Below, in pieces: positions 36,061 to 40,685 of a stretch of DNA of 64,000 bases. Position 1 is the stretch's first letter; the number at the start of each line of letters is the position of its first letter. The translations under genes were made by a program, and so were the position numbers. Source of the DNA: an uncultured SAR86 cluster bacterium (GTDB taxonomy: Bacteria > Pseudomonadota > Gammaproteobacteria > Magnimaribacterales > D2472); assembly GCA_905478035.1 (NCBI GenBank), contig CAJQGX010000020.1:1-64000 (forward strand), in the 5' to 3' direction. Under the pieces are notes generated by a model, which saw nothing but the letters and a program-made list of their open reading frames with translations, did no database searches and was not told the DNA's origin.

Positions 36061-36507
36061 ATGATTAAAACCTTGCCAATAACCTCCCATCATATAGCAA
36101 TTTGTGAAGGTAACTTTTTAAGATTACAAAGGCTTCTAGGAGAGTTTAATCAAGATAGCTATGAGTTTGAAACAGTAAATCCTGATTCATCATCACTAAA
36201 TATTAGCTTTGTTATATTAAATAGAACCAAACATACGCTTACTGTTGAGGCTAAACAAATCTCAAATCCAGAAGAAAGAATAAATACATTTATTTTAAAA
36301 ATACAAATAAGTATTGATGCAAAGTTAGCGGAGGTGCATTCGTATCAGGGCGAAAAATCCTTATCCTTTTTTACAAAACTATCCACCATTCAGTCACTAG
36401 ATGAGAAGGCTCAGCAAAATAGATTTCTTACTGAATGGCTTGAGAGTATTTTTATAGCAGGCATTGCATCAAAGGATAGCCTTCAAAGAATTATTAAAAA
36501 TGAATAA
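36061..36507 (+). CDS. yqiB: YqiB-like DUF1249 protein
   Basis: 148 residues matching DUF1249: IAICEGNFLRLQRLL near the N-terminus, an internal beta-rich region, AEVHSYQ, and DEKAQQNRFLTEWLESIFIAG. Function is unknown. In E. coli yqiB is in the same cluster as yqiA, and the same pair is found here, overlapping by eight bases. Confidence 0.82.
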   Translation: MIKTLPITSHHIAICEGNFLRLQRLLGEFNQDSYEFETVNPDSSSLNISFVILNRTKHTLTVEAKQISNPEERINTFILKIQISIDAKLAEVHSYQGEKSLSFFTKLSTIQSLDEKAQQNRFLTEWLESIFIAGIASKDSLQRIIKNE

Positions 36508-37075
36508 AACTATTTTATATTTTCATGGCTTTAAATCATCCTCTGATTCAACTAAAGCACAAAACTTAAAGAAATTTATTAAAAAAAACACTAAGAGTAC
36601 ATTAATAAAAGTCCCCAATCTTAATGATAATTTTGAGAATGCTTTTAATGAAATTAATAAAATAATTGAAAGTTGTGATAATGATATTGTTTTTATGGGG
36701 AGTTCGTTGGGTGGATATTATGCAACATACTTTTCCCAACTACATAACACTAAAGCTGTTTTAATTAATCCTGCCATAGCTCCGCTTAAAGGTTTTGATG
36801 TGAACCTAGGAGAAAATGAAAATTATGCTACCGGAAATAAATTTATTATTAACAAAGGTGATATAAATTTTCTTAGGAGTCTTAGTTTTAAAAAACTATC
36901 TAATCTTGAAAACATAATGGTTTTAGTAGAGTCTGATGATGAGATTTTGCCTTTTAACAAGACTAGTTCATACTTTAGTGGTTCTCATATTGATGTAACA
37001 TTTGGTGGAGACCATTCATACCAATCTCTATCAAGCAAATATATAAAAATTAAAAACTTCTTAAATTTAGCTTAA
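36500..37075 (+). CDS. yqiA: YqiA/YcfP-family alpha/beta hydrolase
   Basis: 191 residues from the ATG at 36500, giving the family N-terminus MNKTILYFHGFKSSS; a longer open frame from 36464 lies within yqiB and is unlikely. The nucleophile elbow is GSSLGGYY, and a C-terminal GGDHSY supplies the His. Probably an esterase or thioesterase. The last gene before the nitrogen operon. Confidence 0.85.
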   Translation: MNKTILYFHGFKSSSDSTKAQNLKKFIKKNTKSTLIKVPNLNDNFENAFNEINKIIESCDNDIVFMGSSLGGYYATYFSQLHNTKAVLINPAIAPLKGFDVNLGENENYATGNKFIINKGDINFLRSLSFKKLSNLENIMVLVESDDEILPFNKTSSYFSGSHIDVTFGGDHSYQSLSSKYIKIKNFLNLA

Positions 37076-37076
37076 T

Positions 37077-37093
37077 TGCAATATTTTAGTGCA
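37077..37093. promoter_or_regulatory. NtrC-type operator, strong
   Basis: TGCAATATTTTAGTGCA agrees with the NtrC consensus TGCACYA-N3-TRGTGCA at 13 of 14 defined positions. It lies about 85 bases upstream of the sigma-54 promoter, a normal enhancer distance. Confidence 0.75.
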
Positions 37094-37106
37094 TAAATTA
37101 TCATTT

Positions 37107-37123
37107 TGAACTAAAATTGTGCG
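37107..37123. promoter_or_regulatory. NtrC-type operator, weaker
   Basis: TGAACTAAAATTGTGCG matches the same consensus at 11 of 14 defined positions. It starts 30 bases (about three DNA turns) after the first site, so NtrC dimers could bind side by side on one face. A further half site (TTGTGCA) ends at 37145. Confidence 0.55.
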
Positions 37124-37161
37124 CATAAATTTCAAATATTGTGCATTTACTATTAATTTAG

Positions 37162-37177
37162 TGGCATGTAAATTGCT
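37162..37177 (+). promoter_or_regulatory. Sigma-54 promoter of glnII-ntrBC
   Basis: TGGCATGTAAATTGCT has the invariant GG and GC dinucleotides with exactly ten bases between them and matches the consensus TGGCACG-N4-TTGCW except for one base. Transcription should begin near 37188, about 26 bases before the glnII ATG, which has an AGGAG ribosome-binding site at 37204. Confidence 0.85.
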
Positions 37178-37213
37178 TTAAATAAATAGAGTTAATTCTA
37201 TTTAGGAGAAAAA

Positions 37214-38194
37214 ATGACAAACTATAAAACGTATGAATACATATGGCTTGATGGCTATAAACCAGAGTCATCAATGAGAAGTAAAGTAAAAGCTACAGAT
37301 GCTGATACACCACCTGATTGGTCTTTTGATGGATCATCTACACAACAAGCTGAAGGCGGAAGTTCGGACTGCCTTCTAATACCTGTTCAAACTTATGCAA
37401 ATGATAATGGACATGACCTTGTAATGACTCAAGTTCAGTCAGCTGATCATACGACTCACCCTTCTAATTTTAGAGCAGCTGCAGAGAAAGTTGTCACTGA
37501 TGAATGGTGGTTTGGTTTTGAACAAGAGTTCTTTTTTACAGATCCAGAAACTGGTGACCCATTAGGATGGGAAAAAGGAGAGCCACGAGCACAAGGTGAT
37601 TATTACTGTGGTGTTGGAGCTGGAAATGTTGTTGGAAGAGAAATCTCTGATATTCATTTACAGGCATGTCTAGATCTTGGAATTACACTTACTGGAACAA
37701 ACGCTGAAGTTGCTCTTGGACAATGGGAATATCAATGTCTTGGAAAAGGAATTAAGGCTGCTGATGATTTATGGGTAAGCAGATATCTACTTTATAAAAT
37801 AGCTGAAGAGTTTGGCGTAGGAGTAAATATTCATCCTAAACCTAAAACTGGTGATTGGAATGGATCTGGAATGCATACAAATTTCTCAAATGAAGAAATG
37901 AGAACAAATGGTTCTGAGGAATTATTTAATTCAATGTGCGACAAACTTGGTGCGGTTCACAAAGAAGGAATTGAGGCATACGGATCAGATAATGACATGA
38001 GATTGACTGGATTACATGAAACTCAAAGCATTGATCAATTTTCTTACGGTGTTAGTGACAGGGGCGCAAGTATAAGAATTCCTGTATACACAGTTGAACA
38101 TAATTGGAATGGTTACTTAGAAGATAGAAGACCTGCTTCTAATGCTGATCCATATAAAATCCTTTCTCATATTGTAGGGACTTTATCTAAATAA
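37214..38194 (+). CDS. glnII: Glutamine synthetase type II (eukaryotic type)
   Basis: ATP-dependent synthesis of glutamine from glutamate and ammonia. 326 residues, much shorter than the 470 of bacterial GSI. It carries GSII signatures: EYIWLDG, PDWSFDGSSTQQAEG, EQEFFFTD, GDYYCGVGAGNVVGREI, GTNAEVALGQWEYQ, NIHPKPKTGDWNGSGMHTNFS and RPASNADPY. GSII is decameric and lacks the adenylylation loop of GSI, so control is expected at transcription. Preceded by a sigma-54 promoter and followed by ntrB-ntrC in place of the usual glnA. Confidence 0.96.
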   Translation: MTNYKTYEYIWLDGYKPESSMRSKVKATDADTPPDWSFDGSSTQQAEGGSSDCLLIPVQTYANDNGHDLVMTQVQSADHTTHPSNFRAAAEKVVTDEWWFGFEQEFFFTDPETGDPLGWEKGEPRAQGDYYCGVGAGNVVGREISDIHLQACLDLGITLTGTNAEVALGQWEYQCLGKGIKAADDLWVSRYLLYKIAEEFGVGVNIHPKPKTGDWNGSGMHTNFSNEEMRTNGSEELFNSMCDKLGAVHKEGIEAYGSDNDMRLTGLHETQSIDQFSYGVSDRGASIRIPVYTVEHNWNGYLEDRRPASNADPYKILSHIVGTLSK

Positions 38195-38202
38195 ATAACT
38201 CA

Positions 38203-38230
38203 AACTAGCTCCTTGAAAAAGGGGCTAGTT
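38203..38230 (+). other. Intercistronic stem-loop between glnII and ntrB
   Basis: AACTAGCTCC, an eight-base loop and GGGGCTAGTT form a 10-base-pair stem with one G-U pair. No T-run follows, so it is not a textbook terminator. It may slow 3' decay of glnII mRNA or partly reduce read-through into ntrBC. It also sits across the TTG at 38213, making the ATG at 38237 the better ntrB start. Confidence 0.65.
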
Positions 38231-38236
38231 CAATTA

Positions 38237-39316
38237 ATGGCTGATATCAATAATATTAAAAACTCTTTACTGAACCAACTAGCATCAGAAATAATTGTAT
38301 TAAGTAAAGACCTTAATATACTTTGGGCAAATGACTCTGCTCTTAGCAATGGCTGGATGTTGAGTGATGGTGACTCAAATAAAATAACTAATCAATTTAA
38401 TCACGAAACTTCTGAAGAATTAACCAAACTTTTAACGGATTGCATTTCATCTAACGCATCCATTACAAAAAGAGGTTTTAGACTTTATAAGTCACAAGAA
38501 AAAAATAGAACTGTTGATCTAACAGTAAGTTGGTCTAACAGTGACGATATATTAATAATAGAGTTATTTTGCATAGATAATCTAAATAAGATAATAGATT
38601 CTTCAAAAACTTTTTCTACACAAAAAATTGCAGCAAACCTAGCTAGAACTTTAGCTCATGAAGTTAAAAACCCTCTTTCTGGAATTAAAGGTAGTGCTCA
38701 AATACTCTCTTCAAAACTTGAAGATGATTTTTCAAAGAAATTTTTAAAAATAATAATTGATGAAACTGAACGTTTAAATAGCATAGTAACTAAAATTCTA
38801 ACTCCACCTAAAAAACCAAAGCTTGAACTTTTTAATATTCACTCTGCTCTTGAGAAGGTTTTTGCACTATCCCAAGTTGATAAGGATGACGTGTTAACTC
38901 TTAAAAGAGATTATGATCCAAGCATCCCAGAGATTCATGGTGATGAAGACTTATTTATTCAGGCAATTTTAAATATAGTTAAGAATGCCCAACAAGCCCT
39001 TCTTCATACAAATAACCCAATCATTACTATTAAATCAAGAGTTTCATACAATCAACCTATTAATGGAAATCTTCATGCTACGGTTTGTGAAGTTAGTATT
39101 ATAGATAATGGTCCGGGAATTCCATCTGATATACAGGAGCAAGTCTTCTTTCCTATGGTTTCGTCCAAGGAAGACGGTTCAGGGCTTGGACTTTCAATTT
39201 CTCAAGATATTATCAGAATTCATGGTGGCTCAATATCGTTTAAAACAAAATCAGGACAAACCGCTTTCTCTATCGTTATTCCAATAAAGCTTGATGCTGA
39301 GGTAAAAAGTGCATAA
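38237..39316 (+). CDS. ntrB: Nitrogen-regulation sensor kinase NtrB
   Basis: 359 residues from the ATG. An N-terminal PAS-like domain (about 10-120) is followed by the phosphorylation site His141 in LAHEVKNPLSGIKGSAQIL. The ATPase domain has N box IVKNAQQAL, G1 DNGPGIP and G2 GSGLGLSIS. No membrane segments, as expected for NtrB, which senses nitrogen through PII protein. It phosphorylates NtrC. A TTG at 38213 would add eight residues. Its stop overlaps the ntrC start. Confidence 0.94.
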   Translation: MADINNIKNSLLNQLASEIIVLSKDLNILWANDSALSNGWMLSDGDSNKITNQFNHETSEELTKLLTDCISSNASITKRGFRLYKSQEKNRTVDLTVSWSNSDDILIIELFCIDNLNKIIDSSKTFSTQKIAANLARTLAHEVKNPLSGIKGSAQILSSKLEDDFSKKFLKIIIDETERLNSIVTKILTPPKKPKLELFNIHSALEKVFALSQVDKDDVLTLKRDYDPSIPEIHGDEDLFIQAILNIVKNAQQALLHTNNPIITIKSRVSYNQPINGNLHATVCEVSIIDNGPGIPSDIQEQVFFPMVSSKEDGSGLGLSISQDIIRIHGGSISFKTKSGQTAFSIVIPIKLDAEVKSA

Positions 39317-40685
39317 AGTTTGGGTCGCGGATGATGACAATGCAATCAGAGTTGTTCTTGAAGAAAGTCTTTCTTCTGCAGGATTTGATGTAAATACATT
39401 TTCTTCTGGAGATGAAGTGGTATCACTCTTAAAGAGTGAAGAGCCAGATCTAATATTAACAGATGTTCAAATGCCAGGAATGCTTGGGTATGATCTTCTA
39501 AAACATATTAATGATAATCATGAAAATATTCCTGTAATTATTATGACCGCATTTACTGATATGCAGGCTGCGGTTGATTCTTATGGCGGTGGAGCTTTTG
39601 AATATATCCCAAAACCCTTTGATCTTGATGAGGCTATTCAAATAATAAACAGGGCTTTAGAAAAAAAACCAACCACAAAAGGCTTAAAAACAAAACCAAC
39701 TACTGACATTATTGGTGAATCAGCCTCTATGCAGAATGTTTTTAGAGCAATTGGCAAGCTTTCAAATACAAATGCAACTGTCTTAGTCCAAGGAGAATCT
39801 GGAACTGGAAAGGAGCTTATAGCAAAATCTTTACATAAAAATAGCCCAAGAAATGACATGCCCTTCATTGCATTAAATATGGCTGACATCCCAAAGGAAC
39901 TTGTGGAATCTGAACTATTTGGTCATGAGAAAGGAGCTTTCACTGGCGCTGTTGAGAAAAGAATTGGTAGATTTGAGCAAGCTAATGGAGGAACTTTATT
40001 TCTTGATGAAATTGGTGATATGCCACTTGATTCACAAACAAGACTTTTAAGAGTTCTCTCAAATAAAGAGTTTTATAGAGTTGGTGGAGATAAACCTATA
40101 AAGGTTGACGTAAGAATAATTGCAGCAACTCATCAAAATCTTAATAATCTTGTCTCTCAGAAGTCCTTTCGAGAAGACCTCTTTTATAGATTAAATGTAA
40201 TTAAGATTGATGTTCCACCATTAAGAGATAGAAAAGAGGATATTGAAGTATTAACGAAATATTTCTTAAAAAATCATTCTGATTCATTGGATGAAGAGTT
40301 AAGAGTTCTTTCTTCTGAGGTTATTGATGTTATTGCTAGTTATGATTGGCCAGGAAATGTTAGACAACTGGAGAATATTTGTTATTGGCTTGCTTTAATG
40401 ACCCCAACCCAAAATGTAAAAATTCAGGATCTTCCGTCTGAAATAAAAGATTACGAGGAGGAGGAATCATCTTCTAATTCTTGGGAAGAAAGTTTTGAAA
40501 CTTGGATTAAAAGCTTAGCCTTATCAATGGACAAAGACTTGATGCATGTTGCTAATAAAAAACTTGAAAAGATAATGATAAAAACTGCGCTTGATAAGAC
40601 TAAAGGAAGAAAAAATGAAGCTGCTATTTTACTTGGAGTTGGAAGAAATACTCTTACAAAGAAAATTAAGGAACTTGGAATCTAA
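39309..40685 (+). CDS. ntrC: Nitrogen-regulation sigma-54 activator NtrC
   Basis: 458 residues: receiver domain with phospho-acceptor Asp52 in [11 protein letters not shown]+ domain with Walker A GESGTGKE (162-169), the sigma-54-contact loop GAFTGA (209-214) and LFLDEIGD. The C-terminal Fis-type helix-turn-helix is [21 protein letters not shown]. The start is GTG at 39309, eight bases inside ntrB. It should activate the sigma-54 promoter upstream of glnII, forming a positive loop over its own operon. Converges on the rhodanese gene with a four-base overlap. Confidence 0.95.

Follow-up and report, generated by a model that had tools for sequence, protein, structure and literature searches.

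The region ahead of glnII in a 64-kb stretch of DNA (hereafter, the window) from SAR86, a streamlined marine gammaproteobacterium, is best read as the enhancer-promoter of a glnII-ntrB-ntrC operon acting as a nitrogen-starvation switch, with a probability that we put at about 0.88. The closest named relatives of the window are likewise SAR86, and the source is a draft genome of 1.255 Mb (88% complete). The control region shows the testable defining features of a textbook system, here in a new host, and it means that a dominant streamlined ocean bacterium has kept the complete sigma54/NtrC response to nitrogen, with one known activator.

The gene order on the + strand (36061-40685) is a DUF1249 gene, yqiA, the control region, glnII, a 28-nt hairpin, ntrB, and ntrC. 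The glnII gene (37214-38194, +), preceded in the sequence by a ribosome binding site, AGGAGA (37204-37209, +), encodes a type II glutamine synthetase of 326 aa; its product matched the GlnII equivalog model NF041605 over nearly the full length (E = 8.6e-106; 353.8 bits, cut-off 500), and the GSI and GSIII models matched far more weakly. The genes directly downstream of glnII scored above the cut-offs for NR(II) and NR(I), namely the sensor kinase gene ntrB (38237-39316, +; NF008293, 262 bits, cut-off 240) and the sigma54 activator gene ntrC (39309-40685, +; TIGR01818, 654 bits, cut-off 559). The translation of ntrC contains a receiver domain, an AAA+ domain in which the GAFTGA loop can be read, and a Fis-type helix-turn-helix (HTH) domain matching the DNA-binding domain of E. 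coli NtrC (1NTC); its cognate NtrB is also present. The hairpin between glnII and ntrB (38203-38230, +; -18 kcal/mol, z = -4.3), a candidate attenuator, recurred at the same place in relatives of families f1 and f2 with changed stem letters and was not seen at the corresponding place in the f3 loci displayed. Elsewhere in the genome, a full-length rpoN (147 bits), on whose presence the original prediction depended, was found in the order lptB-rpoN-mgtE, along with genes for GlnD and two PII proteins.

The sigma54 promoter TGGCATGTAAATTGCT lies exactly where it had been predicted, at 37162-37177 (+), with GG-N10-GC spacing and one departure from TGGCAC-N5-TTGCW. The exact pattern occurred once in the window. 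From the geometry of sigma54 promoters, transcription is predicted to start at 37187 (+), about 12 nt past the -12 GC. Across family f1, the element was kept upstream of glnII in about 40 distinct sequences, including the L003 copy CGGCATCGTTATTGCA, which was counted as a promoter with one mismatch, and stood 51-63 nt ahead of the glnII start codon in the promoter-bearing f1 relatives. As the letters used for picking promoters are invariant by construction, conservation was judged on the remaining columns, where A at +10 was conserved in 35/39 and T at +16 in 39/39 while neighbouring columns varied. The original prediction would have failed had the motifs varied between relatives while the surrounding bases stayed the same; instead, the motifs were kept between relatives and the bases between them were not.

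Upstream of the promoter, we found an array of dyads of the type TGCAC-N7-GTGCA, a known NtrC site. Both operators claimed at 37077 and 37107 were present and scored here as 9/10 for dyad 1, TGCAATATTTTAGTGCA (37077-37093, +; centre 37085), and 8/10 for dyad 2, TGAACTAAAATTGTGCG (37107-37123, +; centre 37115). The half site GTGCA ending at 37145 turned out to be the right arm of a third 17-bp dyad with a decayed left arm, ATTTCAAATATTGTGCA (37129-37145, +; centre 37137), 22 bp from dyad 2. Dyads 1 and 2 occupy the same helix face upstream of the promoter together with a decayed third; the weak points in the window are site 2, at only 8/10, and site 3, a half site. In relatives, the counterpart of dyad 1 was located about -79 or -69 from the TGG, orthologues of dyad 2 (e.g., TGCACTAAAATAGCGCA and TGCACATTATTAGTGCA) followed about 30 bp from dyad 1, and the third dyad, often better preserved than in the window, had the same 22 bp spacing (AGCACAGTTTTTGTGCA in L004; TGTACAAATACAGTGCA in L034). 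The centre spacing of 30 bp plus 22 bp was fixed across relatives, with centres at about -79/-49/-27 from the TGG in one genus set and -69/-39/-17 in another; the window array (-78/-48/-26) belongs with the first. The whole array has shifted between genera by about 10 bp, or one helical turn, relative to the promoter, as expected of activators that need to face the polymerase across a loop.

Single operators were no better than chance within the window (61 matches with at most two mismatches versus 85 expected), and significance at that level was rejected. A pair of dyads scoring 8/10 or better within 110 bp arose in about 1% of dinucleotide shuffles of the window sequence and in 0-0.5% of shuffles for nearly all relatives, with L018 as a clear exception. 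Chance cannot explain the array, since about 40 distinct relatives share it at the same fixed spacing.

Under nitrogen shortage, low glutamine would lead GlnD to uridylylate PII, upon which NtrB would phosphorylate NtrC. Phosphorylated NtrC dimers are predicted to occupy dyads 1-3 and assemble into a hexamer, which would loop to the sigma54-RNA polymerase waiting at 37162-37177 and touch it through the GAFTGA loop, with ATP-driven opening of the polymerase complex allowing transcription from near 37187. The outcome would be more glutamine synthetase and more NtrBC, a positive feedback in which the hairpin probably lowers ntrBC relative to glnII. Under nitrogen plenty, a basal transcript probably comes from a weak sigma70 promoter, its -10 in dyad 2, under NtrC repression, as with E. 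coli glnAp1.

The candidate -10 of this second, glnAp1-like promoter is the hexamer TAAAAT (37112-37117, +), which is overlapped by the NtrC site of dyad 2. Of the promoter-bearing f1 loci, 25/40 had a TAnAAT-type hexamer within one of their dyads, as did 14/15 of the f3 loci that encode full-length NtrC but lack full-length rpoN; in many relatives, TAAAAT or TATAAT held a fixed offset in the middle dyad, and it outlasts the sigma54 promoter in f3. By analogy with E. coli glnAp1, the hexamer may be a sigma70 -10 element lying under an NtrC site. Inspection by eye found no convincing -35 at 16-18 bp, where GTGCAT/AGTGCA (37088-37094) agrees with TTGACA at 2/6 positions. The persistence of the hexamer in sigma54-less f3, together with an f1 clade (genus g5) that dropped the glnII promoter yet keeps rpoN, would also suit a reading in which the -24/-12 element is a vestige and glnII is transcribed mainly from the sigma70 promoter, with NtrC only repressing or tuning it. 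We consider this improbable, because the promoter letters are conserved in 39-40 distinct sequences, GAFTGA and rpoN are intact, and the array shifted as a unit by roughly one turn of the helix.

The reach of sigma54 in this genome was estimated from exact TGGCAYN5TTGCW sites, of which five of eight were intergenic. They point to a small regulon: one site precedes glnII (with ntrBC), one an outer-membrane-type gene followed by glnK and amtB, one a second amtB, one a gene of roughly 130 residues followed by an msrB-like gene, and one a TonB-dependent receptor gene. Except for PII, these gene names were taken from reading the sequences and not from profile searches. The intergenic share was 11/20 in three other rpoN-bearing genomes versus 0/20 in three rpoN-less genomes (Fisher, 1.5e-4; 2e-5 when the 5/8 of the source genome were added). 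Raw genome-wide counts were rejected as evidence for a sigma54 regulon, as rpoN-less genomes gave similar totals because the pattern also falls in coding sequence; the reversed-pattern control was too lenient for these counts, and only the intergenic subset discriminates. In g1 and g5 of f1, a sigma54 promoter lies in the intergenic stretch ahead of the gene of roughly 130 residues (L154:981-1439, L158:1128-1532, L200, and L216), with the msrB-like gene downstream in L154 and L158; the 130-residue gene is a candidate addition to the nitrogen regulon.

Of three PF00158 matches in the genome, only the NtrC encoded behind glnII scored convincingly as a sigma54 activator (250 bits); the remaining two reached about 24 bits, both within one 750-residue frame. 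That the TGCA dyads belong to another regulator, with sigma54 served here by a different activator, is less probable still than a vestigial promoter: the operators are individually not above chance in the window and an activator may be missing from a genome that is 88% complete, but the sole convincing candidate lies next door, its HTH matches that of E. coli NtrC, and the dyads are of the known NtrC type. A chance resemblance in an AT-rich intergenic stretch, which the background level of one-mismatch promoter matches in the window (7 versus 5.1 expected) might suggest, is negligibly probable and already contradicted by the conserved position and spacing and by the link to rpoN presence, all seen across families.

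As a probable NtrC-driven enhancer-promoter, the region resembles E. coli glnALG, with its glnAp1/glnAp2 promoters and NtrC enhancer sites (PMC3870243), in that glutamine synthetase is followed by ntrBC behind a sigma54 promoter with high- and low-affinity NtrC sites and a probable sigma70 promoter beneath them. Unlike in E. coli, the SAR86 enzyme is GSII (glnII) and not GSI, the array is more compact and nearer the promoter, and no convincing -35 is visible. The rhizobial glnII of S. meliloti and R. leguminosarum is also a GSII gene activated by phosphorylated NtrC (PMC10746234), as is predicted for SAR86; in this gammaproteobacterium (draft genome, 1.25 Mb), however, ntrBC immediately follows glnII.

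The graded dismantling of this system outweighs the region itself in interest. We surveyed 203 genomes of the order, checking GlnD and PII in 23 of them and using a tree built from glnII, YqiA, and DUF1249; rpoN loss was scored only where consistent across a genus, single incomplete genomes (e.g., G083) were not counted, and the apparent lack of an AAA+ domain in L082 is an artefact of a locus that ends inside ntrC. The remark in the original prediction that streamlined bacteria often lose such regulation holds within SAR86 itself, where cis and trans parts were lost together across the order. In most of family f1, RpoN, GlnD, PII, NtrBC (with GAFTGA or GSFTGA), and the glnII promoter are all present. 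Genus g5 of f1 keeps RpoN and a GSFTGA NtrC, and its glnII promoter is lost or degraded (L046, AGGCATCACAATTGCA); sigma54 sites kept there ahead of two other genes, the outer-membrane-type and the 130-residue one (L200, L205, L216, and L217), would explain the retention of rpoN. Family f2 has RpoN, GlnD, NtrBC, and NtrC-like dyads, yet no -24/-12 element could be recognised at glnII, so the promoter may have been either gained in f1 and f3 or lost in f2. It follows from these two cases that glnII can do without this promoter even where sigma54 is present.

Family f3 keeps PII and NtrBC; no full-length RpoN and no GlnD were found in the genomes checked, nor any intact glnII promoter, the best being eroded sequence in its place (L045, TAGCATTTACTTTGCT). 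The NtrC loop reads GAFTGA in f3 genera g12 and g19 and otherwise GAFKGA or GAFAGA. In an f3 subclade without rpoN (L040, L049, L050, L060, L080, and L173), the NtrC downstream of glnII is a receiver-HTH protein of roughly 256 residues from which the AAA+ domain has been deleted. The NtrC of Rhodobacter capsulatus and Caulobacter, which is sigma54-independent, has lost GAFTGA, and acts on sigma70 promoters (PMC10274813), is a model for these f3 relatives and not for the window; loop L1 deletions there contrast with GAFKGA/GAFAGA or the removal of the whole AAA+ domain, plus the loss of rpoN, in f3.

The rpoN locus of f3 genera g12 and g19 is occupied by an ORF of 75-80 residues consisting only of the RpoN-box domain (L115:2605-2841 [-], L116:2353-2589, L117:2193-2420, L118:2504-2740 [-], and L219-L224), with no activator-interaction or core-binding domain. 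Its SRKTI-KYR motif was invariant in 10 genomes, and in each of the four fully read loci its neighbours are lptB and mgtE. The dN/dS was 0.02-0.05 among g19 members where dS was estimable, as low as in neighbouring genes, so the ORF appears to be a working gene and not debris; the simplest guess is a free DNA-binding protein. We tentatively suggest, at somewhat less than even odds, that after rpoN was lost in f3 the operator-keeping NtrC was rebuilt as a sigma54-independent regulator of the old sigma70 promoter (through GAFKGA/GAFAGA or as an AAA+-less two-domain protein), and that the RpoN box alone survived in two genera under purifying selection in a new, non-sigma role.

In f1/g6 and family f4, two separate lineages on the tree, no RpoN, GlnD, PII, or NtrBC was found. 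A glutamine riboswitch (RF01739, 62-71 bits) lies directly upstream of glnII in both (f1/g6: L037, L061, L062, L065, L074, L078, and L079; f4: L166-L172), in tandem in most of f1/g6. This glnA leader element is known from cyanobacteria and marine bacteria (PMC9004378), and in these lineages it sits where the lineage of the window has the sigma54/NtrC region. One order thus presents, at the same gene, a full switch, rpoN without the promoter, NtrC without sigma54, an ATPase-less NtrC, and a riboswitch instead, which makes the dismantling of a sigma54 regulon during genome streamlining a directly testable question. No description of such graded dismantling in SAR86 was found in the open-licence papers searched.

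Several glnII loci stood out in the survey. In L172 (G039, f4), the synthetase behind tandem riboswitches has 468 residues and is 25% identical to the GlnII of the window, apparently another glutamine-synthetase type in the same place. In L171 (G042, f4), a frameshift or an assembly error divides glnII between two frames (residues 1-108 and 106-326). Ten loci from mostly Pelagibacteraceae-titled records (L041, L042, L051, L058, L067, L068, L072, L073, L075, and L076) have a glnII that shares 87-89% identity with its SAR86 counterpart and follows a gene with a PII-like end; they may reflect glnII transfer between SAR11 and SAR86.
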